From NCBI RefSeq assembly GCF_001403635.1, contig NZ_LN879468.1, positions 1,519,501 to 1,583,500 on the forward strand: a DNA stretch of 64,000 nt, in the 5' to 3' direction. The position numbers and the translations under genes were made by a program. Position 1 is the first letter of the stretch, and the number at the start of each line of letters is the position of its first letter. The notes beneath the pieces were generated by a model that saw only the letters and a list, made by a program, of their open reading frames with translations, searched no databases and was not told the DNA's origin. This document shows positions 38,392-60,836 of the stretch, piece by piece. This DNA is from Clostridium massiliamazoniense (GTDB lineage: Bacteria > Bacillota > Clostridia > Clostridiales > Clostridiaceae).

Positions 38392-39768
38392 TTACTTCAT
38401 TATTTTTTTTGCTAATCCTAATTTCCCTTTAAATGGGGCATATCTCAATGGAACGTCATACCAAGTTCCCCTATCAACAACTGCCTTTGCATTTGAAAAA
38501 GTATAAAAACTATTTTTTCCATGATATTTTCCTATCCCACTATTTCCTACTCCACCAAAAGGAAGATATGTTGTTGATACATGCATTAGAGTATCATTTA
38601 TAACCATACCACCTGAGGTTGTGCACTTTAAAACCTTCTCTATTTTCTTTTTATCATTACTAAAGTAATATAAAGCTAAAGGTTTTTCTCTATCATTTAC
38701 TTCTTTTATTACATCATCTAAATTTTCAAATTCTAATACTGGAAAAATAGGTCCAAATATTTCTGATTTCATTACTTTATTTTCCCAAGTTATATTATTT
38801 AATATAGTTGGTTCTATATATAATTTCTCTAAATCACAATTCCCACCAAATTCTAAATTATCTTTTTCTATATAAGACATAAGTCTATTAAATTCTCTTT
38901 CACTTACAATTTTCCCATAGTCCTCTGAATTTTTAGGATTTTCTCCATATTGTTTGTTAATTTCTTTCTTTAGCTCCTCTAAAAATTTTGATTTTACAGC
39001 TTTATGAACATATATATAATCTGGTGCTACACAGGTTTGTCCACAATTAATAAGTTTTCCCCATACAATTCTTTTTGCTGCTAATTCAATTTTTGCATCA
39101 CTATCTACTATACAAGGACTTTTCCCTCCTAATTCTAAAGTGACAGGAGTTAAAAATTCTGAGGCAGCTTTCATTATTATTTTTCCTACAGTTATACTTC
39201 CAGTAAAGAAAATATAATCAAATCTCATTTTCAGTAATTCTTCTACAACTTCTTTTCCTCTTGTAGGATCAATATATGCAACATATTCCTCATCAAAAGT
39301 TTCTTCTAATACTTTTTTTATTATATTTGATGTTGCCATTACATATTCTGACGGTTTTATCATAGCAGTATTTCCAGCAGCTATAGCACCAACTAAAGGT
39401 GCTAAATTAAGTTGAAATGGATAATTAAATGGTCCTATTATAAGAACAGTTCCATAAGGCTCATATTTTACATAACTTTTTGCTGGAAATAATGCTAAAG
39501 GACTTTTTGCCCTTTTATTTTTAGACCAACTTCTTAATTTTTTTAATGCTATATTTATTTCTTCGTAAATTAATGAAACTTCTGTAATATATCCTTCAAA
39601 ATCTGACTTTCCTAAATCCTCTTTTAGAGCTTTAAGTATTTCTTCTTCATTATTCTTAATAACACTTTTTAATTTTTTTAAAGCATTTAAGCGATATTCT
39701 ATATCTAGAGTTTTCCCCTCTTTAAAAAATTCCTTTTGCTTATTATAAACTTCTAAAATCTTACTCAT
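38392..39768 (-). CDS. Class 3-type aldehyde dehydrogenase
   Basis: A 458-residue NAD(P)-dependent aldehyde dehydrogenase. The ATG at 39766-39768 is chosen because GAGGAG precedes it by four bases. Motifs: PFNYPFQLNLAPL, the catalytic-glutamate segment VTLELGGKSP and the catalytic cysteine in NCGQTCVAPDY. The C-terminus has a hydrophobic/basic tail (LRYAPFKGKLGLAKKIMK), as in membrane-associated long-chain members. It probably oxidises medium- or long-chain aldehydes; the substrate is uncertain. Confidence 0.9.
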   Translation of the reverse strand: MSKILEVYNKQKEFFKEGKTLDIEYRLNALKKLKSVIKNNEEEILKALKEDLGKSDFEGYITEVSLIYEEINIALKKLRSWSKNKRAKSPLALFPAKSYVKYEPYGTVLIIGPFNYPFQLNLAPLVGAIAAGNTAMIKPSEYVMATSNIIKKVLEETFDEEYVAYIDPTRGKEVVEELLKMRFDYIFFTGSITVGKIIMKAASEFLTPVTLELGGKSPCIVDSDAKIELAAKRIVWGKLINCGQTCVAPDYIYVHKAVKSKFLEELKKEINKQYGENPKNSEDYGKIVSEREFNRLMSYIEKDNLEFGGNCDLEKLYIEPTILNNITWENKVMKSEIFGPIFPVLEFENLDDVIKEVNDREKPLALYYFSNDKKKIEKVLKCTTSGGMVINDTLMHVSTTYLPFGGVGNSGIGKYHGKNSFYTFSNAKAVVDRGTWYDVPLRYAPFKGKLGLAKKIMK

Positions 39769-39822
39769 AACTCTCCTCGCTATCAATTAATAATATTATT
39801 AATATTCCATTTTATTTATTTA

Positions 39823-39856
39823 ATGACTAGTATCTGTAATACTCCAATCTTCTATA
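39823..39856 (+). repeat. Half copy of palindromic repeat family 2
   Basis: TGACTAGTATCTGTAATACT followed by CCAATCTTCTATAA, nearly identical to the minus-strand first half of the copy at 31267-31337. It lies upstream of the aldehyde dehydrogenase gene. Confidence 0.55.
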
Positions 39857-39927
39857 ATCCTAATTATCTTTTTAAAATCCTCTCTTTATTATATCATTAA
39901 AAAATAGTATCCTTAACTAGGCCTTTT

Positions 39928-40635
39928 CTACCATATCTTAATTGCCATATTATTTTGTATACTTTCTTTTGGAATTAATATTTCTTGAATACCAGAAGCA
40001 TATGGTGCTATTTCATAAAGTTCAAATACTATAACTATACCTTTATCATTTATATAAAACTCTTGGTTATCAGAAATTCCTTTAAATTTATTTTCTTCAT
40101 CTTGGAAATAAAAACTTGGATTTGATGCTATTTTTTTGTTAACACTATCATTTATAAGTTTTTTGTAATCAAATCCTGGTTTAAATATATTAGCTAAAGT
40201 TAGCTTCTCTCCTGTTTTAGAATTTATATTATAAGCATCTAAAGTACTTAATCCGTGAGCACCACCTGTTGATTGATAAGTTATTATAAAAAAACTCAAT
40301 ATATCATTTTTATTAAAGGTAACTTCATAAGTAGAATTTACCTCATAAGGTTTAAAACTAGTACTTTCATTATCGTTTTTATCCATTTGAGCAAGTTGTG
40401 TAACATCAGCAACTGTATTTTCAAACTTATTTAATATACTATTACTTAATTCATTTCCAATCTTCTTATCAGGTGTACTTATTATTGGTAGTTGTGATGA
40501 TACCTTTATAAGTTTTGTTTCCCTATTTATATTCCTATCATATACAGTAACTCCAGTTTGTGCCTTGGCAAAGGAAAAAGTTAATGTTATGATAGAAAAT
40601 GCTATTGTAAAAATCATAGCTAATTTTTTTTTCAC
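39928..40635 (-). CDS. Secreted DUF4163/DUF3298 (RsiV/PdaC-like) protein
   Basis: A 235-residue exported protein. A signal peptide ends near AKA (about residue 25). The mature part has a DUF4163-like half (about 35-130) and a DUF3298-like half (about 140-230), as in the external domain of the anti-sigma factor RsiV, which senses lysozyme, and of PdaC. It lacks a transmembrane anchor and a sigma-binding domain. It starts at GTG with GGAGTG upstream. A cluster of DnaA boxes sits 100-190 bases ahead of the start. Confidence 0.75.
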   Translation of the reverse strand: MKKKLAMIFTIAFSIITLTFSFAKAQTGVTVYDRNINRETKLIKVSSQLPIISTPDKKIGNELSNSILNKFENTVADVTQLAQMDKNDNESTSFKPYEVNSTYEVTFNKNDILSFFIITYQSTGGAHGLSTLDAYNINSKTGEKLTLANIFKPGFDYKKLINDSVNKKIASNPSFYFQDEENKFKGISDNQEFYINDKGIVIVFELYEIAPYASGIQEILIPKESIQNNMAIKIW

Positions 40636-40735
40636 AGTTTATCACTCCATTCTATATACTACGTTGTTATTGTTTCCACAGAATATAGAATTATGTATAA
40701 ATAAAAACCTAGTTAAAATCAATGATTGTAAAAAA

Positions 40736-40827
40736 TTATCCACAAAATAAAAATAAAAAAATTATCCACAATTTATATATGTAATTCTGTGGATAAATTC
40801 ACAAAATTACATATAAGCTGTGGATAA
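40736..40827. promoter_or_regulatory. Cluster of four perfect DnaA boxes
   Basis: TTATCCACA occurs at 40736-40744 and 40762-40770 on the plus strand, and at 40788-40796 and 40819-40827 on the minus strand. The steps are 26, 26 and 31 bases. An inverted repeat TATATGTAATT / AATTACATATA (40776-40786, 40805-40815) encloses box 3. No origin genes (dnaA, dnaN, rpmH) are nearby, so this looks like an oriC-distant DnaA cluster or a DnaA-controlled promoter. Confidence 0.85.
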
Positions 40828-40839
40828 ATTATCATTAAA

Positions 40840-41865
40840 TCACTTTGCCCTTAAAGTAAATTCTTCTCCTGAATTATTAAATACTAATATGTACTTTCCA
40901 TTCTTATTTTCTTGATTAGCTACTATTTCCTTTAATCCCTTTAATTTTTCAAAATCTAAAGGTTCACCAGTTACAGCTACTCTAATAGTTCCATTTTGGG
41001 GAATCATATTATTCTTTTCTGCATAAATGAGTATTTCTGAAACAACTTTATCTACATTCTTATTATTTAATTCAAGATTATTAACAAGTTCCTTACCTTT
41101 TTCAGTAGGCGAATATACAGAAACTACTTTATCTAATTTATTAACTTCAATTTTTATGTCTGAAGTTGTTTTTAATAATATAGTAGAAGAAACCGAGTTA
41201 TAAAATATATTGCAAGCTTTTAAAACTATTATCCCTATTACTACTGCAATGACTATTTTATTAAAATATTTTTTTATACCTTGGTGTTTCTTCCCAACAA
41301 CTTCATCCCCTACTTCCCATTTATTATTATCTATAATCCTAAAAAACTCCCCTTGATTAGTTAATATTATTACCTTGCCATAGCGTTTTTTATATCTTAA
41401 AGCTATTCCCTTCTTTAAATCTCCATCACTATTATCAACAACAGGAACTAAAGATAGTTCATCTAATTCTCTAATTTCTATTCTTAAGTATTTATTTATT
41501 TCACTAAGCCTCTTATCTAAAAATAAAATAATATAAGCTAATATATATTTTTCATATTGCTTTATAAACTCCTCTTTTAACCTTGTTTCAAATGCAATAT
41601 CTCTAATGGGAATTTTCTTTTTCTTTTTAATTTTTTCTATTAATTTTTTTCTTTCACAAACGTACTTAGCTATATTTAAAATTACATTTTTTTTATCTAT
41701 TCTTGGCGTCTCATTACATAAAGAATTAAAACTAAGCTTAAACTCCTCAAGTTGTTCTTCATAAATTACTATTTCTTTAACCAACTTTTTTTTATCTAAA
41801 ATTTCTTTTTTTCTTACTCTCGTTGAAAAAATATACCTATCTTTTTGAAATACTTCTGTAGCCAC
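40840..41865 (-). CDS. Fusion of SigI C-terminal domain with RsgI-type transmembrane anti-sigma factor
   Basis: A 341-residue protein starting at GTG, eight bases after AGGGGGG. Residues about 20-130 resemble the C-terminal domain of sigma factor SigI (KEIVIYEEQLEEFKLSF, NIAKYVCERKKLIEKI, KKKIPIRDI, YEKYILAYIILF). Residues about 155-200 match the RsgI N-terminal anti-sigma domain (KKRYGKVIILTNQGEFFRI, WEVGDEVV). A membrane helix lies at about 208-225, then an RsgI-type external domain (IKIEVNKLDKVVSVYSPTEK). Sigma region 2 is absent. Domain matches are from memory. It is divergent from ispF. Confidence 0.78.
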   Translation of the reverse strand: MATEVFQKDRYIFSTRVRKKEILDKKKLVKEIVIYEEQLEEFKLSFNSLCNETPRIDKKNVILNIAKYVCERKKLIEKIKKKKKIPIRDIAFETRLKEEFIKQYEKYILAYIILFLDKRLSEINKYLRIEIRELDELSLVPVVDNSDGDLKKGIALRYKKRYGKVIILTNQGEFFRIIDNNKWEVGDEVVGKKHQGIKKYFNKIVIAVVIGIIVLKACNIFYNSVSSTILLKTTSDIKIEVNKLDKVVSVYSPTEKGKELVNNLELNNKNVDKVVSEILIYAEKNNMIPQNGTIRVAVTGEPLDFEKLKGLKEIVANQENKNGKYILVFNNSGEEFTLRAK

Positions 41866-42167
41866 AGTAAATGCCCCCCTAAAACTAATTTACTATATAT
41901 TTCACTTTAATAACTAATATGTATAATTATAACATAGTCTTTTCTTATATCTAACACAAACCAACACTTAATTTAGATAAAGTTTTAATTCTATCTCAAT
42001 TTTAAAAATTACTATCTATAAAAGTTTAAAATACTTCGACATTAGTTAACAGATATAAATCATAGTTATAATTAATTATCTAAACTATGATAAAATATAA
42101 TATATAATTTTATAGTGTAAATTTAAATCTAAATTATATTGTCTCACTTATGAAAGGAGGACTTTCC

Positions 42168-42635
42168 ATGAGAATTGGAATGGGCTATGATGTACACAAA
42201 CTAGTTGAAGGTAGAGATTTAATTATTGGTGGAGTTAACATAGAATTTGAAAAAGGACTTTTAGGACATTCAGATGCTGATGTTTTACTCCATGCTATAA
42301 GTGATTCACTTTTAGGAGCTGCTGCACTAGGAGATATTGGAAAACATTTTCCTGATACTGATGAAAGATATAAAGGAGCTGATAGCATAAAACTTTTAGC
42401 TCATGTAGGAAATTTATTAAAGGAAAACAATTATTCTATTGGTAACATTGATGCAACAATTATTGCTCAAAAACCTAAAATGTCTCCTCACATAGAAAAA
42501 ATGAGAGTTAATATTGCCAAGGCACTAAACATTTCTATTAATCAAGTTAACGTAAAAGCAACTACAGAAGAAGGACTTGGTTTCACAGGTGAAATGAAAG
42601 GTATCGCTGCACAAAGTATAGCTCTACTAAATTAA
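42168..42635 (+). CDS. ispF: 2-C-methyl-D-erythritol 2,4-cyclodiphosphate synthase
   Basis: A 155-residue IspF. The ATG at 42168 follows AAAGGAGG; an upstream in-frame ATG lacks a site. Zinc-ligand residues are in GYDVHKL and [18 protein letters not shown], with [18 protein letters not shown] near the C-terminus. It makes the cyclic diphosphate of the MEP isoprenoid pathway. It stands alone and is one of the few plus-strand genes here. Confidence 0.96.
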
Positions 42636-42664
42636 TATACTATCAAAAACTTTATACCAAAAAT

Positions 42665-42719
42665 AAAATGACCGCTATAAAGGTAGGATTTATTCCTCTT
42701 TATAACAGTCATTTTTTTA
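42665..42719 (+). terminator. ispF terminator (possibly bidirectional)
   Basis: AAAATGAC ... TATAAA / TTTATA ... GTCATTTT hairpin followed by seven T on the plus strand, between convergent ispF and the transporter gene. Confidence 0.85.
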
Positions 42720-42723
42720 TTTA

Positions 42724-44070
42724 TTAATTTATTAAAACCTTATCTTTCTCATCCTCTTTTTCTATCTTATCCATTTTCTCTATAGTTTTCTTTCCTCTTT
42801 CTTTATTAAAAAATACTATAAATATTACTGCACTTATGCCCATTAAATATGGATAAAATAAATTTTTCATTATGGCAAAAGGAGTAATACCTGCTAAAGA
42901 TGCTGCAGTTAATAATTGTGCTCCATAGGGTATTAATCCTTGGAATACACAAGAAAACATATCTAATATTCCTGCAACTCTACTTGAATCTAACTTATAC
43001 TTATCTGAAATTTTTTTTGCTATTGGTCCTACTGTTAATATTGCTATAGTATTATTAGCAGTAGCTATATCTGCTATACTTACTAAGGCTCCTATTCCTA
43101 ATTCTGCCCCTCTTTTTGTTTTTATTCTTTTAGTTATATTATATAGTAAGAAGTCTATTCCCCCATTTACTCGTACTAATTCAACTATTCCACCTATTAT
43201 AATTGATATTATCAATGTTTCGCTCATTCCTGATATTCCAGTAGAAATTGATGAAAACAATGTTCCTAAAGTCAAAGATTTTGTTATAAATCCGACTAAT
43301 GTTCCTAACACTATTCCCCCAGTTAACACTAAAATTACATTTACACCCATTAAAGCTGCTATTAATATGGCTACATAAGGAATTATTTTTATTATATTGT
43401 AGCTATAAGTAGCAGATGTTACAGAAACACCTCGCCCTAATATTACATAAAGTACTATGGCTATAATTGCAGCTGGCATAACAACCTTAAAATTTGTCTT
43501 AAACTTAGCATTCATTTCACAATCTTGTGTTTTTGTTGCTGCTATAGTTGTATCTGAAATCATTGATAAATTATCACCAAACATTGCTCCACCAACAACA
43601 GCTCCTACTATTAAAGCCAATTCTATAGATGTTTTTTCTGCAATTCCAAGTGCTATTGGAATTAAGGCTGCTATAGTTCCCATAGATGTTCCAAGTGATA
43701 TTGCTATAAATGATGAAATCACAAATATCCCAGCTATTAATATATTATTTGGCAGGATAGTCAGACCTAGATTAACTGTTGATTCTACTGCTCCCATTTC
43801 TTTTGCTATACCAGCAAAAGCACCTGCTAATAAGAATATAATACACATTAGCATTATATTACTATTTCCCGCTCCCTCACAAAAACTTTTTACGCTTTTA
43901 TCAAAATTCTTTCTTCCTCCCATACCTATCGCTACAAGTGTAGCTATTATTCCAGGTACTAAAACCGATACTGCATAAAAGTCTTTTAGTGCCATTGATG
44001 CTCCCAAGTAAATTACAACGAATAATACTAAAGGTAATAATCCTATTGCTTTTCCCTTATTTCTTTCCAT
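42724..44070 (-). CDS. metT: NhaC-family transporter under SAM riboswitch control (MetT-like, candidate methionine transporter)
   Basis: A 448-residue, 11-12-helix carrier of the Na+/H+ antiporter NhaC family (VGGAMFGDNLSMISDTTIAA and GTSMGTIAALIPIALG visible). The ATG at 44068-44070 follows AAAGGGGGAAG. The leader carries a complete SAM-I riboswitch with terminator, so expression follows methionine need. S-box controlled NhaC proteins have been called MetT and are thought to import methionine; this is genomic-context inference, so the substrate remains unproven. Confidence 0.82.
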   Translation of the reverse strand: MERNKGKAIGLLPLVLFVVIYLGASMALKDFYAVSVLVPGIIATLVAIGMGGRKNFDKSVKSFCEGAGNSNIMLMCIIFLLAGAFAGIAKEMGAVESTVNLGLTILPNNILIAGIFVISSFIAISLGTSMGTIAALIPIALGIAEKTSIELALIVGAVVGGAMFGDNLSMISDTTIAATKTQDCEMNAKFKTNFKVVMPAAIIAIVLYVILGRGVSVTSATYSYNIIKIIPYVAILIAALMGVNVILVLTGGIVLGTLVGFITKSLTLGTLFSSISTGISGMSETLIISIIIGGIVELVRVNGGIDFLLYNITKRIKTKRGAELGIGALVSIADIATANNTIAILTVGPIAKKISDKYKLDSSRVAGILDMFSCVFQGLIPYGAQLLTAASLAGITPFAIMKNLFYPYLMGISAVIFIVFFNKERGKKTIEKMDKIEKEDEKDKVLIN

Positions 44071-44140
44071 TGTGCTTCCCCCTTTTTGTATTTTCCTATA
44101 TTTAAACAAAGTTTTTTTCATTATCTTCTTTTTAAATATA

Positions 44141-44316
44141 AAAAAGCTCCTGTCTATAGACAGAAGCTTATTAATTACAAATACATTATTAACCCTTCTT
44201 ATCTATCAGTTATTTATAACTGCTGGAATTAGCACCTTCTTATATTTAAAAACCACTTTAAATATATTGGTTGCCGGGCTTCATAGGGCCAGTCCCTCCG
44301 CCTCTCTTGATAAGAT
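44141..44316 (-). ncRNA. SAM-I (S-box) riboswitch with terminator
   Basis: On the minus strand the conserved S-box core reads CTTATCAAGAGAGG, then GGAGGGACTGGCCC, TATGAAGCCCGGCAACC, and the P1 partner GATAAGA (44196-44316). It is followed by the hairpin AAGCTTCTGTC / GACAGGAGCTT with six T (44141-44169). High SAM would favour termination before the transporter gene. It ends about 70 bases ahead of the start codon. Confidence 0.96.
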
Positions 44317-44414
44317 AATTGAAAATCCTTATTTAAATTTAATGTTATTTTATCATCAAAATTTCTATATTTCAATATATATTTTTATAATATACTAATT
44401 ATTCTTTATAATTT

Positions 44415-45254
44415 TTATTTTATTAATAATTTTAAAGTTTTTTCTAGAAGTATCCCTTCTTTTGCTTCATAATCATAGTTACTACTAAGTTCCACTGACT
44501 TTCCTATATATTCGCTTGCAAACTTAGCTGATTCTCCTAAAGAAACTCCATTTATAAATTTACCTATTAAAACAGAAGCAAAAGCATCACCCGTTCCAGG
44601 ATAAGATTTATTTATTTTTTTTATTGAAATTCTAGCAAATTCATTTTTACCACTATCATAGCTTATGGTATCTAAGTAATCCTTTCCTTTTAAACTAGGA
44701 GCACTTGTTATTACAACCATCTTAGCTCCTAATTTCACTAAGTCATATAAACATTCCTCTATTTTTATGGGGTCATTAATTTCTTCAAAACTTTTTCCTA
44801 ACAATAGGGCTACTTCAGTTAAATTTGGTGTTATTAAATCTGCTATTTTAACCAACTCCCTCATAGCCTTTACCATGTCATTATCTAAAGAACTGTATAA
44901 TACTCCATCATCACCTAAAACAGGATCTACAATAAAAAGTGTTTCTTTCTTTTTAAAGTCCTTTGCTATATGCTTAATTATTTCACTTTGTTCTGAATTC
45001 CCTAAATATCCTGTATATATACATTGAACATCCAAATCAATTTCCTTCCAATGTTCCCTACACTTATCTAAAAAGTTGCTCAAATCTATCATTGCTGGTT
45101 TTCCAAAACCACCTGTATGTGTTGATAATATTGCTGTTGGCATAGGACAAACCTGTACTTCCATAACTGACATTATTGGAATTATTGTTGTCAATGAAGC
45201 TCTTCCATAGCAAGACAAATCATGTATTGCCATTACTTTTTTCATTGGATACAT
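44415..45254 (-). CDS. pdxY: Pyridoxal/pyridoxamine kinase (PdxY/PdxK-like)
   Basis: A 279-residue ribokinase-fold kinase starting MYPMKKVMAIHDLSCYGRAS, with STHTGGFGKP, the GDDGVLYSS segment and the C-terminal anion-hole motif YPGTGDAFASVLIGK containing the catalytic Asp. It phosphorylates vitamin B6 vitamers to give PLP. The ATG follows GGAAGTGAAGAT. PLP is the cofactor of MetY encoded elsewhere in the window. Confidence 0.88.
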   Translation of the reverse strand: MYPMKKVMAIHDLSCYGRASLTTIIPIMSVMEVQVCPMPTAILSTHTGGFGKPAMIDLSNFLDKCREHWKEIDLDVQCIYTGYLGNSEQSEIIKHIAKDFKKKETLFIVDPVLGDDGVLYSSLDNDMVKAMRELVKIADLITPNLTEVALLLGKSFEEINDPIKIEECLYDLVKLGAKMVVITSAPSLKGKDYLDTISYDSGKNEFARISIKKINKSYPGTGDAFASVLIGKFINGVSLGESAKFASEYIGKSVELSSNYDYEAKEGILLEKTLKLLIK

Positions 45255-45302
45255 ATCTTCACTTCCTTTTCATTAGAGTTCTCAACTTTTAACTAAAATA
45301 AA

Positions 45303-45328
45303 AAAAGCAGTATTAAAATACTGCTTTT
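45303..45328 (-). terminator. tRNA operon terminator
   Basis: Perfect 11-bp stem AAAAGCAGTAT / ATACTGCTTTT with a four-base loop and seven T on the minus strand, starting two bases after the tRNA-Lys CCA end. Confidence 0.93.
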
Positions 45329-45329
45329 G

Positions 45330-45406
45330 TGGTACGCCATCAGGGATTCGAACCCTGGACACCCTGATTAAGAGTCAGGTGCTCTAACCAACTGAGCTAA
45401 TGGTGC
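45330..45406 (-). tRNA. tRNA-Lys (anticodon CTT)
   Basis: Cloverleaf on the minus strand with anticodon loop CTCTTAA, D arm GCTC/GAGC, T arm CAGGG-TTCGAAT-CCCTG and encoded CCA. The acceptor stem has a G1-U72 wobble and an A3/C70 mismatch. It is the last gene of the tRNA operon. Confidence 0.92.
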
Positions 45407-45429
45407 TCAATAAGATTCATTTCTTTAAT

Positions 45430-45503
45430 TGGAGCGGGTACCGGGAATCGAACCCGGGTATCCAGCTTGGAAGGCTGGTGTTCTACCATTGAACTACACC
45501 CGC
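45430..45503 (-). tRNA. tRNA-Gly (anticodon TCC), copy 3 in transcription order
   Basis: Anticodon loop CTTCCAA in stem CCAGC/GCTGG, acceptor GCGGGTG, discriminator T and encoded CCA. Identical to the two other glycine genes. Confidence 0.97.
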
Positions 45504-45528
45504 ATGGATTTATATTTTATTTAATTTA

Positions 45529-45602
45529 TGGAGCGGGTACCGGGAATCGAACCCGGGTATCCAGCTTGGAAGGCTGGTGTTCTACCATTGAACTACACCC
45601 GC
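45529..45602 (-). tRNA. tRNA-Gly (anticodon TCC), copy 2
   Basis: Identical 74-base gene with anticodon loop CTTCCAA and encoded CCA; spacers between the copies are short, AT-rich and alike. Confidence 0.97.
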
Positions 45603-45629
45603 ATGGTGTTTATATTTTTATTTAATTTA

Positions 45630-45703
45630 TGGAGCGGGTACCGGGAATCGAACCCGGGTATCCAGCTTGGAAGGCTGGTGTTCTACCATTGAACTACACC
45701 CGC
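45630..45703 (-). tRNA. tRNA-Gly (anticodon TCC), copy 1
   Basis: Identical to the two downstream glycine genes. The roughly 100-base period indicates tandem duplication of gene plus spacer. Confidence 0.97.
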
Positions 45704-45707
45704 AGTG

Positions 45708-45782
45708 TGGCTGGGATAGCAGGATTCGAACCTGCGCATGACGCAGTCAAAGTGCGTTGCCTTACCGCTTGGCGATATCCCA
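45708..45782 (-). tRNA. tRNA-Gln (anticodon TTG)
   Basis: Anticodon loop CTTTGAC in stem ACGCA/TGCGT, acceptor TGGGATA pairing with TATCCCA, discriminator G and encoded CCA. Confidence 0.96.
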
Positions 45783-45785
45783 ACA

Positions 45786-45862
<77 letters not shown>

Positions 45863-45903
45863 ACATTTATGTATTTAGTTGCTAAGCACTAAGTACATAA
45901 ATT

Positions 45904-45932
45904 ATTATATTAAATGACTTTTATTTTGTCAA
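45904..45932 (-). promoter_or_regulatory. tRNA operon promoter
   Basis: TTGACA (45927-45932) and TATAAT (45904-45909) with a 17-base spacer on the minus strand, about 40 bases upstream of tRNA-Arg. Confidence 0.93.
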
Positions 45933-46006
45933 CATTTTATTTAAAATTTTCTAACAAGAAATTTACTTAAATAAAATATCCTTTAATATATTAAATTGAA
46001 ATTTAC

Positions 46007-46672
46007 TTATATCACCTCTGTTAACCCATTTATAAGAATTTTTTTAAAGCTCTCAGCCGCCTCTTTATCTTTTATAACATTATTACAAAGGCTTAACCAC
46101 TGTTCATGATTCAAAATACCTTGATTATAAGATATTTCATTTTTTCCTATGATTTCATTTGCATCTAATACAAATTCCCCTAATTCTCTTGCATCATTAA
46201 ATACTTTAAAATATAAAAACACATTTTCATTGCCCTTCCAATCTCTATTAAATTCTCTTTCTAGAGATTTTAAGCCTTCTATAATTTTTTCATCCTCTAC
46301 TTCCCATAACTCTCTTAAATGATTTGTCTCATTTATTATTTTTTCATTTTCTTCCTTTGTCAGCCTACTCCATATAGATAAAAGAACTTGCTCAATAGTT
46401 ATTATAGGTATTTCACGATTTGATTTATCCCTTGCCTCAACCCACTTATAATAAGCTTCCGGTAAAAAACAGTACTTTATATAACCTAAAAGCTTTTTAC
46501 TATTAGGCATAGCAATCCATCTATTTTCTATGCCAGAATTCTTAGTAAATATTATATAATGCAAAAATTTAGTTTCTTCAGTTATAGGTGCTTCTAAAAA
46601 CATTTTTTCATTAACTTCATCATCATTTATTAAATCTGTCCAATACTTTAAAGAATTTATATGACTTCTCAT
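46007..46672 (-). CDS. Hypothetical protein, unrecognised
   Basis: A 221-residue soluble, acidic, mostly helical protein, rich in Trp, Glu and Asn. No signal peptide, membrane helix, metal site or known motif was recognised. It starts with an ATG after AAGGAG. It lies downstream of nothing on its strand and upstream of the tRNA operon promoter, so it may reach into that region. No function is offered. Confidence 0.7.
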   Translation of the reverse strand: MRSHINSLKYWTDLINDDEVNEKMFLEAPITEETKFLHYIIFTKNSGIENRWIAMPNSKKLLGYIKYCFLPEAYYKWVEARDKSNREIPIITIEQVLLSIWSRLTKEENEKIINETNHLRELWEVEDEKIIEGLKSLEREFNRDWKGNENVFLYFKVFNDARELGEFVLDANEIIGKNEISYNQGILNHEQWLSLCNNVIKDKEAAESFKKILINGLTEVI

Positions 46673-47349: not shown

Positions 47350-47645
47350 CTAAAAAAACTCTGTTGACAGTGAATATTTAAAGTTCTATAATTACATTAA
47401 CAATATTTTAATACGTTGATGAGACGAGTAAGCTTTGATAAGTCTACCAGAGAGAAATGCAATTTGCTGAGAGCATTTTTAGATGGAATTAGCTGAAAAC
47501 TACCTCTGAGTGACTCTAATCCAGTCCGTATAAACTGCGTTAAAGTTTTTAAAGTGGTGTAAATTTTTTTACACAATTTGGGTGGAACCACGGGAATACT
47601 CTCTCGTCCCTTTTCTTCTAGGAAAAGGAACGGGAGTTTTTTTAT
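47350..47645 (+). ncRNA. T-box riboswitch of thrS
   Basis: A leader of about 300 bases with the T-box motif GGGTGGAACCACGGG (47580-47594), which forms the antiterminator, followed by a terminator hairpin (CTCTCGTCCC ... GGAACGGGAG) and eight T. Upstream Stem I includes an AGAGAGAAATGC segment and a likely specifier region GAAAACTACCTCTG, in which both ACT and ACC are threonine codons. Uncharged tRNA-Thr would promote read-through into thrS. Confidence 0.94.
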
Positions 47646-49875: not shown

Positions 49876-50166
49876 TCAATTTTCATTTCTACTATTGTTA
49901 CTTGAAAAATTATCTTGTTTTTCTCCAACCTCAGTTGTTTTTATCTTATAATAAGTTAAATCTTTCATTTTATTTACAGATTCTATAGCAGGAGTCATTA
50001 CTGCAACAATTAAGAGAGCAGCTATAATAACTTTTGGTACTTCTATTTCATAATTTAATGCTTTTCTAAGCTTATATTGTGGCTTTTTCTTCTCTTCTTT
50101 ATATTCTTCTTTTATTCTATTCTTAAGACTACTGCTAATCTTTATATTTTCAAAGTCACTATGCAT
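49876..50166 (-). CDS. Small single-pass membrane protein, candidate anti-sigma factor
   Basis: A 96-residue protein: charged cytoplasmic N-terminal part (about 1-43), one membrane helix (about 44-61) and a short external tail. Its start overlaps the end of the ECF sigma gene by eight bases. This gene order and topology are usual for anti-sigma factors that tether an ECF sigma to the membrane. No zinc HxxxCxxC motif is seen. The role is inferred from context. Confidence 0.65.
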   Translation of the reverse strand: MHSDFENIKISSSLKNRIKEEYKEEKKKPQYKLRKALNYEIEVPKVIIAALLIVAVMTPAIESVNKMKDLTYYKIKTTEVGEKQDNFSSNNSRNEN

Positions 50167-50719
50167 ATAAATCCTCCTTTTTTATATTTTTTGAAAGCTC
50201 AATTCTTCCTCTTCTAAGAAAAGTTTTTATAGTGTTCTCACTTTTTTCTAAAACACTACTAATTTCTTTAATAGACATATCATCATAGTAAAACATATAA
50301 ATGACATCTTGATATTTTTTATTTATCTTACTTAATCCATCTAGAATGATATTCTTGTTACATTCTCCTAAGTACTCCTCAAATCCAGATTCATCATAAG
50401 CTATATCCTTTTCTTTATCATCTGAAAAATCAACATAGGTCACTGTAGATTTTTCTTTACATAGCTTTCCTTGATACTTATTACAATTATTTATAGCTAT
50501 TTTATAAATCCAAGTTTTAAGTGAACACTTATTTTTAAATTTTCCTATATACTTAAAAACCCCTAATAAAGTTTCTTGTGTTAAGTCTTCTGCTACTTCC
50601 ATTTGAGAAGTCCTTATATAACACAATCTTAAAATATCATTACCATATAACTCTACTAATTTATCAAAGGCTTCATCCTCTCCATTTATCAAACCATTGA
50701 TTAACTGCCTTTCATCCAA
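50159..50719 (-). CDS. ECF-type RNA polymerase sigma factor
   Basis: A 186-residue ECF sigma factor. Region 2 is visible as YGNDILRLCYIRTSQMEVAE with DLTQETLLGVFKYI and KTWIYKIAINNC; region 4 as DVIYMFYYDDMSIKEISSVL and ENTIKTFLRRGR. It directs RNA polymerase to a small regulon, probably including this operon. It lies between a large membrane protein gene and a candidate anti-sigma gene. The inducing signal is unknown. Confidence 0.9.
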   Translation of the reverse strand: MDERQLINGLINGEDEAFDKLVELYGNDILRLCYIRTSQMEVAEDLTQETLLGVFKYIGKFKNKCSLKTWIYKIAINNCNKYQGKLCKEKSTVTYVDFSDDKEKDIAYDESGFEEYLGECNKNIILDGLSKINKKYQDVIYMFYYDDMSIKEISSVLEKSENTIKTFLRRGRIELSKNIKKEDLYA

Positions 50720-50743
50720 GCTGCTTCCCCCTTTTACATCAAG

Positions 50744-52633
50744 CTAATACCCTAAGTCTTTTTCTAAATAAAATTCTATCTGATTATGAATAGTAATATA
50801 TCTTTTTATTTGTGTATATATAGTTTCACTTTTAGTAATTTCTTTAAGTTCCTCATTTAGTTCTATAGCTTTATTTACATTCTTTCCATTCCCTAAATTA
50901 TCTACTCCTAGCACATATAACTTTATAAGTCTTTCCATCATATCTATATCTCTATTTCCTTTTTCATAAAGCCCCTCATAATATTTTAATAAACCTTCAA
51001 AGTCATCATTCTTTATATATTCTTTTTCCTTTTCATTATATGAAATTTTAATTGAGCTATAATCATCCATCTCTTCAATAAAGTATTGTGCAATGCTTAC
51101 AATGTTATTTAAATTAACAGCACTCTTAAATTTAGAACTTATTGAAGTATCCACATTAAATTCTTCTAAAAGAAAATTTTTAGATAGCTCTACACTTTGA
51201 CCTTTAGCAAAGTATTTACTAACATCAACACCTAAAATATCTCTTTCGAAATTATGATTACTCGTAGTACTCAAAATAATTTTATTTCCTTCTTCTCTTA
51301 ATTTAATCTCCTTATTTGCCTCTTCATCTTCATCATACTTTTCATTAAATATATTTTTATTATCTGAAATTCTTAAGTATTTTTTATTATCACTAATAAC
51401 AATATATTTTTCGTTATATTCTTTTCCTTCTTCAAGATTTTTTTTAGATACTACTTCTAAATAATTAGCTATAAACACCATTCTTCCTTGCTTTGTATTA
51501 TCTATTAACTCTAATCCACTATTTAATGCCTTATAGTAAGGTAAAACTATATTAACCTCATATATTCCTTCTGGAACATTATTAAAATAAAACTCACCTT
51601 TTTTATCTACATAAGAAAAAGTTGTTATTTCGTAAGGATATTCTTTTGAATCATCATTTGTATAAATCCCACCTCCTTGTGGAATTAACTTAATTAAAGC
51701 ACCTTCCATAGGCATTCCATCAATAATAAAATATCCTTTTACATCCCCTCTATTTTCAGCACTAACTATATTTTCTAAAACTACTTTTTTTCTTTTCTCT
51801 AATAATTTTTTATATTCATTATCTCTTATAAGATAATCCCTATAATAAAAATCTTTAAAATAAATTTTTTCATAATTTAATTCTTGCCAAATGCTTTTTC
51901 TGTTTTCTAATCCATATGAAAAATTTAAGGATTTATAAAATGCTTCCTTTGCTAATTTTTCTTCGCCCTTCAACATATATATCTGACCTAAATATCTATA
52001 AAAATCAAATTTCCCTTTCTTTTTATAGTCTTCCTCAAGCTTATTTAATGAAAACAAAGCTTTATCATAGTCTTGAAGCTTTACAAATAATATAGATTCA
52101 TTTAAATATCCTAAATTTTTTGTGTATCTACTTGCTGAATTTTTCATTTGTTCAACAATTGCTTTAGCTCCTTCAATATCCCCTTTTATATGATAAAGTT
52201 CAATTAATGCCTGAGCATTTTTATTGTAATAAATTTCACTATTTTTCCCCTTAATAGCTTTTTCATGGCACAGTATTGCATTTTCTAATCCTTTATAAGA
52301 ACTATATTGTGGTTCAATATTTTTGAATACTTCTCTTGTTATAATAAAATTATTTGTATCTGTCTTATAATAATTTTTTCCCATAATATAATAAGCAATA
52401 TCTTCAAAGGGAGATAATTTAGGCATCTTAACATAAATATTCAAAAATCCTTGTGTAAAAAAACTTGCTGGTATTTCTTTATTAGTAACTCTCCAATTCA
52501 TATCAAAAATAGTATAAGATATTCCAATTATTAAATTAGGTATAAAAATAAAAACAATAGCTAAACCCATTAAAATATGCTTAACTTTTATTCTAATAAA
52601 CTTACCTTTCTTATCTAATTTCAACCCCTTCAT
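50744..52633 (-). CDS. Membrane-anchored TPR / CarboxypepD_reg-like protein
   Basis: A 629-residue protein with one N-terminal membrane helix (about 18-42). TPR-like helices occupy about residues 110-260 (GYLNESILFVKLQDYDKALF, GQIYMLKGEEKLAKEAFYK). A beta-sandwich resembling a carboxypeptidase regulatory domain follows at about 295-380 (GYFIIDGMPMEGALIKL, YFNNVPEGIYEVNI). The rest is unassigned. It is first in an operon with the ECF sigma and probable anti-sigma genes and may be their sensor or target; that is inference. Confidence 0.7.
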   Translation of the reverse strand: MKGLKLDKKGKFIRIKVKHILMGLAIVFIFIPNLIIGISYTIFDMNWRVTNKEIPASFFTQGFLNIYVKMPKLSPFEDIAYYIMGKNYYKTDTNNFIITREVFKNIEPQYSSYKGLENAILCHEKAIKGKNSEIYYNKNAQALIELYHIKGDIEGAKAIVEQMKNSASRYTKNLGYLNESILFVKLQDYDKALFSLNKLEEDYKKKGKFDFYRYLGQIYMLKGEEKLAKEAFYKSLNFSYGLENRKSIWQELNYEKIYFKDFYYRDYLIRDNEYKKLLEKRKKVVLENIVSAENRGDVKGYFIIDGMPMEGALIKLIPQGGGIYTNDDSKEYPYEITTFSYVDKKGEFYFNNVPEGIYEVNIVLPYYKALNSGLELIDNTKQGRMVFIANYLEVVSKKNLEEGKEYNEKYIVISDNKKYLRISDNKNIFNEKYDEDEEANKEIKLREEGNKIILSTTSNHNFERDILGVDVSKYFAKGQSVELSKNFLLEEFNVDTSISSKFKSAVNLNNIVSIAQYFIEEMDDYSSIKISYNEKEKEYIKNDDFEGLLKYYEGLYEKGNRDIDMMERLIKLYVLGVDNLGNGKNVNKAIELNEELKEITKSETIYTQIKRYITIHNQIEFYLEKDLGY

Positions 52634-55067: not shown

Positions 55068-55235
55068 AAAACTATTTTAATCTAAGAGATTGAAATAGCT
55101 TTATTCTAGGAAACAATCTCTTTTATCTATCAAAGGAATAAACTCCTTCGCAGGATTTAGCACAATTCTGATTTATGATATCAGCTGTTGCTAGGTTTCA
55201 TAGGGCCAGTCCCTCCACCTTTCTTGATAAAAGAC
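55068..55235 (-). ncRNA. SAM-I (S-box) riboswitch of metY-metA
   Basis: The minus-strand aptamer reads CTTTTATCAAGAAAGG, GGAGGGACTGGCCC, TATGAAACCTAGCAAC and the P1 partner GATAAAAG (55120-55234). The terminator CTATTT-c-AATCT / AGATT-a-AAATAG with eight T follows, and AAGAGATTG upstream can pair with CAATCTCTT as antiterminator. High SAM would stop transcription. Confidence 0.96.
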
Positions 55236-60414: not shown

Positions 60415-60469
60415 AAATTTATTTTCCTTCCTCTTCTTTGTACTCTTTTGTTAAACACAAAATCAACTT

Positions 60470-60600
60470 TGTACTAAAAATCACTTTTTAGCTTTAATCA
60501 ATTTCTTACGATAGTGTTTATACCGTAGGGCATCCGCCGAATAATTTCGATACTCCCTATCCTCGTCAACTCTTCTCTCTGAGTTCTGGCGCTTTTAATG
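60470..60600 (-). ncRNA. glmS ribozyme
   Basis: On the minus strand: AGCGCCAGAACT at the cleavage end (60593 downward), then GACGAGG, GGAGTATCGA, GGCGGATGCCC and paired regions ending about 60480. These match the conserved glmS ribozyme core, which self-cleaves with glucosamine-6-P and lowers glmS mRNA. It ends about 60 bases before the glmS start. Exact 3' limit is estimated. Confidence 0.95.
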
Positions 60601-60836
60601 AAGTTTTTATCAACTTCTGAATCTATTCTATACCATATTATATTCTCTTTGCAAGTTTTTTGTTCAAAATTTCCTATTTAAAAGAATTATTTTTATTTTT
60701 CTTCTGTTTTCTCCGTTTTTCTCTGTATTAATATCTAAACATCTAGTTGTATAGACAAGTTCTTCTTTTTTCCTTGTATCATTGATTGTATTTCTTGAAT
60801 ATTATAAATATAAAGTTTATGTTTTAAGGAGTTTTT

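Follow-up and report, generated by a model that had tools for sequence, protein, structure and literature searches.

A SigI C-terminal domain without sigma region 2 is joined to an RsgI-type membrane anti-sigma layout in one gene of Clostridium massiliamazoniense

In the 64-kb stretch of Clostridium massiliamazoniense DNA that we analysed (hereafter the window; GC content 28.7%), we confirmed a single intact coding unit in which the C-terminal domain of the sigma factor SigI (SigI-C) is joined to the layout of the membrane anti-sigma factor RsgI. The protein lacks sigma region 2, the residues with which SigI-C contacts DNA are eroded, and the external domain is without the Asn-Pro found in canonical RsgI. 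Our leading, though tentative, explanation is that the gene encodes a repurposed membrane complex of SigI-C and RsgI-N bound to itself, rather than a DNA-binding switch, and that the product would act, if at all, via protein contacts. The features on which the argument draws are as follows.

40840..41865, minus strand: the whole fusion gene, 341 codons (341 aa) with a GTG start (ORF listing, Pfam, NCBIfam, codon bias)
41926..41953, minus strand: weak candidate for a sigma-A-like promoter, TAGATA-16-TATAAT with TG, 10/12
41873..41880, minus strand: ribosome-binding site AGGGGGGC (AGGGGGG), read by eye from the sequence
41485..41799, minus strand: SigI C-terminal domain, residues ~23-127 (NCBIfam, PDB match, hhalign)
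41689..41706, minus strand: minor-groove loop, PRIDKK region, residues 54-59, replacing the conserved PKHxD and without His (alignment)
41539..41577, minus strand: recognition helix KEEFIKQYEKYIL, residues 97-109, replacing SRKTIERNRKYII (alignment with canonical SigI)
41419..41484, minus strand: linker between the sigma and anti-sigma parts, residues 128-149 (Pfam boundaries and alignment)
41293..41415, minus strand: RsgI_N (anti-sigma-I N-terminal) domain, residues 151-191 (Pfam, 26.2 bits, marginal against a cut-off of 25)
41200..41259, minus strand: single membrane helix, residues ~203-222, without an XAA motif (hydropathy; sequence reading)
41161..41166, minus strand: Thr234-Ser235, aligned with the Asn-Pro of canonical RsgI (alignment, PDB chain starts, hhalign)
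40900..41160, minus strand: RsgI_M external (autoproteolysis-type) domain, residues 236-322 (Pfam, 35.9 bits, cut-off 25.3)

The coding signal runs through the whole gene. In the frame of the fusion, the codon log-odds were +0.36 per codon (0.30 in the N-terminal and 0.41 in the C-terminal part), the five remaining frames scored from -0.31 to -1.43, and all 11 of the 30-codon blocks tested were positive (0.06 to 0.68), using a codon table trained on 27 window genes of our own choosing, with a mean of 0.55 and a minimum of 0.24. An assembly error or frameshift that joined two genes, which the original prediction had named among the findings that would undo it, was not seen; it is extremely improbable because the codon bias is continuous in a single frame, and no SigI region 2-like stretch lies upstream. 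We also simulated neutral drift in 400 random 341-codon ORFs, and 4.25% were still free of stops at 10% amino-acid change, 0.25% at 20%, and none at 30%. The intact frame therefore fits maintenance by selection, and is still compatible with a recent loss of function. In the region of the candidate promoter there were 22 promoter-like sites, compared to a mean of 11.7 (sd 4.2) in shuffles. The next gene upstream, which we take to be ispF, is separated from the fusion gene by a gap of 284 bp.

The N-terminal part of the protein is related to SigI. Ten NCBIfam SigI models matched within residues 18-131, every one through its C-terminal portion (best E 5.8e-15, profile positions 130-238 of 244), and none of the ten matches reached the whole-protein cut-off, as expected with half of SigI missing. 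The SigI6 chain in the PDB matched residues 23-126 with an E of 1.4e-8, the SigI1 chain matched the same stretch, and hhalign of the N-terminal half against four canonical SigI gave a probability of 96.9. The SigI-C domain is thus present, and the SigI-type region 2 (SigIN; -10 recognition, core binding) is absent from the protein, given that the NCBIfam models were matched at their C-terminal positions alone. A region 2 profile built from residues 1-140 of four canonical SigI had no match in six frames of the window, among stop-to-stop stretches of at least 25 codons and including the 284-bp upstream gap. The full SigI profile, applied to the same six frames, had the fusion ORF as its sole match (model positions 134-242 of 243), and the profile search found no separate sigI gene adjoining the fusion or anywhere in the window. 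Sigma-I promoters follow an ACCCC/CGAA-type pattern, and the pattern ACCCC-N12-22-CGAA had no match in the window. From its domain content, the product is predicted to be unable to serve as a sigma factor.

According to the alignments, the SigI-C scaffold of the fusion appears to be better preserved than its DNA face. The residues of SigI6 that touch the -35 element were identified by Li et al. (2023; PMC10575876), in whose account sigma-I binds the -35 element through SigI-C, in a winged-helix-like manner; the conserved contacts are the minor-groove His171 and Arg215, and the major-groove contacts mostly vary among paralogues. When the minor-groove His was mutated, Arg and Lys retained some activity and the five further substitutions tried abolished it (PMC10575876). 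Our alignment comprised the fusion and six canonical SigI, namely SigI6 and SigI1 fragments and four proteins from plasmid records. The fusion was identical to the canonical proteins in 5 of 78 comparisons at the 13 DNA-contact columns (six of the 78 fall on the gap that it has at the His column) and in 151 of 536 at the other columns; at the six recognition-helix contacts, there was no identity in 36 comparisons. The low contact identity had a P of 0.009 against random 13-column sets and of 0.0008 against conservation-matched columns, and the conservation-matched P for the recognition-helix contacts was likewise 0.0008. Five of the six canonical proteins agreed at 51-65% of contacts and 35-44% of positions elsewhere (conservation-matched P 0.41 to 1.0), whereas for SigI1 these figures were 29% and 35% (P 0.03). 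The fusion keeps 9 of 12 invariant non-contact positions and neither of the two invariant contact positions.

At the positions of SigI6 Arg214, Arg215, and Lys221 the fusion has Glu, and at that of Arg219 it has Gln. Its minor-groove His is either deleted or replaced by Arg55 or Ile56, according to the placement of the gap, which leaves neither of the conserved -35 contacts, His171 and Arg215, in place; Arg55 could come to lie at the His position if the gap is shifted. These changes weaken one proposal of the original prediction, that of a membrane-tethered, sequence-specific DNA-binding regulator, since the DNA-contact columns have diverged beyond the rest of the domain. We regard such a regulator as very unlikely, and on the alignment as the least likely biological reading, even though SigI-C is the -35 binder of sigma-I (PMC10575876), the domain carries a net charge of +9 (+2 to +12 in the canonical proteins), and six of the 13 contact columns hold a basic residue (net charge over these columns +3, versus +5 to +7 in the canonical proteins). 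The Glu and Gln substitutions and the minor-groove loop without His argue against it. A changed DNA preference of the domain is possible, as the contacts of SigI1 are also low and most major-groove contacts are not conserved (PMC10575876). Two other suggestions made at the same time, a self-inhibited relic and a decoy, are possible and fit better, since binding between RsgI-N and SigI-C is known (PMC10575876; PMC12203970).

The remainder of the protein has the layout of RsgI. The RsgI_N match is marginal, a single membrane helix follows, and the RsgI_M match covers profile positions 11-99 of 133 alone, so that the external domain may be incomplete. This half is the weak point of the domain reading, because of the marginal RsgI_N and because hhalign against two RsgI gave a weak match (probability 10, E 0.003). 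Both halves of the original prediction were nevertheless borne out, namely the C-terminal half of SigI without region 2 (by NCBIfam, the PDB chains of SigI6 and SigI1, and the region 2 profile) and the order of anti-sigma domain, membrane helix, and external domain (by Pfam and hydropathy), and the boundaries it had set, residues 15-135 and 150-341, proved good. Past the RsgI_M match the protein continues for 19 residues, and lacks the long outer region that follows RsgI_M in the two RsgI compared. An AlphaFold2 model of the fusion from single-sequence input had a pLDDT of 40 and a pTM of 0.28, too low to support any fold assignment.

Several features that are usual, if not universal, in RsgI are missing. 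There is no Asn-Pro in the external domain, and hhalign likewise aligned none; residues 203-222 contain no XAA motif, and no separate cognate sigI adjoins the gene. In five PDB chains, of which two are RsgI2, the RsgI external domain starts exactly at the Pro aligned to Asn-Pro, and on this basis we take Asn-Pro to be the RsgI self-cleavage site. In C. thermocellum, eight of nine RsgI are reported to contain the XAA motif, RsgI5 being the one without it. Normal release has been described as a self-cut in the external domain, followed by RseP cleavage of the membrane helix and removal of what remains by ClpXP (PMC12203970). A missing cleavage motif is no proof of missing signalling, given that RsgI8 of C. 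thermocellum also lacks it (PMC12203970) and that closing the cleavage site of B. subtilis RsgI is reported not to block signalling fully.

What the fusion retains is precisely the two domains that interact in normal pairs, where RsgI-N holds SigI-C and its binding competes with the flap helix of RNA polymerase (PMC10575876; PMC12203970), one surface of SigI-C serving both RsgI and the polymerase (PMC10575876). We therefore consider a self-occluded complex in one chain to be the most likely arrangement. A sigI-rsgI pair would have been joined in frame with loss of sigma region 2, and the product would be a single-pass membrane protein in which SigI-C is held in cis by its own RsgI-N. With most of its promoter-reading residues gone, SigI-C would probably not bind DNA, and with the Asn-Pro lost the external domain would not be expected to cut itself, so that the usual proteolytic release is not expected either. 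If the protein has any function, the loss of the promoter-reading residues and of the usual release would make protein contacts its most likely mode. It is conceivable, though rather unlikely, that the fusion is more specifically a domesticated sigma domain that no longer binds DNA, i.e., a non-cleavable single-chain complex that either serves the cell envelope in its own right or acts in trans on other sigma-I/RsgI pairs or on RNA polymerase.

Action in trans could also take the form of a decoy or anti-sigma factor, in which the fusion swaps partners with a full-length SigI or a further RsgI encoded elsewhere in the genome, or with the flap helix of the polymerase, and tunes sigma-I activity from the membrane. 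Both binding modules are present in the protein, the SigI-C surface is common to RsgI and the polymerase (PMC10575876), and potential partners are reported in other clostridia: separate sigI and rsgI genes in C. butyricum (PMC7690194), and SigI in C. beijerinckii and C. acetobutylicum (PMC6362236). However, binding to itself in cis would compete with such an exchange, and the window, of just 64 kb, contains neither a sigI nor a site of the ACCCC/CGAA type. We consider a decoy of this kind distinctly unlikely.

We also searched for relatives of the fusion. Scans of genome contigs for short exact peptide stretches, whose reach is that of close relatives, gave 370 pattern matches to the fusion and 48 to the neighbouring kinase (44415-45254), none of which was confirmed. 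In viral contigs, the fusion as query found no relative, and there was no match to alignments of canonical SigI-C and full SigI, or to an RsgI alignment headed by the C-terminal half of the fusion. By tblastn, the fusion had no match at E 1 in plasmids and phages. The DNA from 38392 to 46672 matched plasmids in short pieces alone (1-3% of the query), and those listed, 20 of 27 records, correspond to the tRNA cluster; tblastn of the aldehyde dehydrogenase gave no clostridial lead among the 10 matches listed. With SigI6 as query, tblastn matched four plasmid records at five places, and each record carries a canonical SigI (one place per record was examined, the second in the record of H34 being left out). 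Two of these SigI have an adjoining rsgI, one annotated as anti-sigma and the other, from Rossellomorea, as a hypothetical protein that we assigned to RsgI by alignment; for the two Priestia SigI, no rsgI was annotated or found as a nearby ORF.

That no relative turned up in the pattern scans of genome and viral contigs, or by tblastn in plasmids and phages, is what might be seen if the gene were a decaying relic, formed when a deletion took region 2 out of a damaged sigI-rsgI operon and fused the two genes, and giving a functionless product. The loss of region 2, of the DNA-contact residues, and of the cleavage site, together with an external domain that is possibly incomplete, makes up a pattern of loss that agrees with decay, as does the GC content at codon positions 1 and 2, which is lower in the fusion gene (0.37/0.23) than in 27 neighbours (0.44/0.34). 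In contrast, the 341 stop-free codons, the codon bias in every block tested, and the good ribosome-binding site are those of a maintained gene, and the losses are concentrated on the DNA face, with most invariant non-contact positions retained. A relic seems unlikely to us, and the self-bound membrane complex is the reading that we tentatively retain.

The closest known systems are the sigI-rsgI operons of the B. subtilis group and of C. thermocellum (SigI1-8/RsgI1-8), in which SigI-C, RsgI_N, the helix, and RsgI_M occur in the same order. The fusion differs from them in being one gene, in lacking sigma region 2, and in its altered DNA-contact residues and Asn-Pro site. It passes as a full member of neither family, since it has neither the defining part of the sigma factor nor a separate adjoining sigI partner. 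In C. thermocellum, RsgI8 resembles the fusion in having no self-cleavage motif and RsgI9 is an orphan with no known cognate SigI, but the published text, as far as it was available to us, describes a SigI domain for neither (PMC12203970). IutY of Pseudomonas putida, like the fusion, combines a sigma factor and a membrane anti-sigma factor in one polypeptide; in IutY, however, the sigma factor is a whole, active ECF sigma that is released by Prc and RseP (PMC5411451; PMC8999054), whereas the fusion has the C-terminal domain alone, from a different sigma class, and without a SigI-type region 2 it does not carry a complete, releasable sigma factor. ECF48, ECF52, and ECF53 are likewise expected to consist of a sigma factor fused to a transmembrane anti-sigma-like part, but in their case an ECF sigma is combined with an anti-sigma part that is likely of the zinc-finger type, and the available text of PMC8999054 gives no hint of a missing sigma region. 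No natural SigI-RsgI fusion was found in the accessible text of open papers, including PMC6056542 and PMC4711584. The fusion of a sigma factor to a membrane anti-sigma factor is in itself already known.

The surroundings of the gene provided several further observations. Four perfect DnaA boxes (TTATCCACA), two forward and two reverse, lie within 92 bp (40736-40827), and the cluster ends 12 bp beyond the stop of the fusion gene. They are the only perfect boxes in the window; over 100 shuffles the mean was 0.70, with 4 in a single shuffle. The looser box TTATNCACA was not enriched (6, versus 4.06 expected). The consensus is that for low-GC Firmicutes (PMC5749712). We rejected an oriC at this position, as there is no GC-skew switch and no dnaA was seen among the window ORFs listed, and our guess is that the boxes form a non-origin cluster for titration or regulation. 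The gene adjoining the fusion (39928-40635, minus strand) encodes PdaC and DUF3298 domains and, by eye, a signal peptide. An ECF-type sigma gene (50159-50719, minus strand) with Sigma70 r2 and r4, i.e., with a region 2 of its own, is unrelated to the fusion, and adjoins the gene of a 629-aa protein (the two span 50159-52633, minus strand; no Pfam match at E 0.001). Six tRNA genes are found at 45330-45862 (minus strand), including three near-identical tRNA-Gly genes that form a 101-bp tandem array with 98% matches. The window also contains two SAM riboswitches (44196-44316 and 55120-55233, both minus strand), a T-box leader (47407-47614, plus strand), and a glmS ribozyme (60449-60604, minus strand). 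The first of the riboswitches precedes the gene at 42724-44121, which we read as that of an NhaC-like transporter, and suggests that this gene is regulated by methionine supply.

If the fusion proves to be conserved, it would be a case of a sigma domain that has come to serve purely in protein interaction, and structural studies would gain a naturally single-chain form of the SigI-C/RsgI-N complex. It would also pose the question of how an RsgI-type protein operates without self-cleavage, which is the same question that has been stated for RsgI8.
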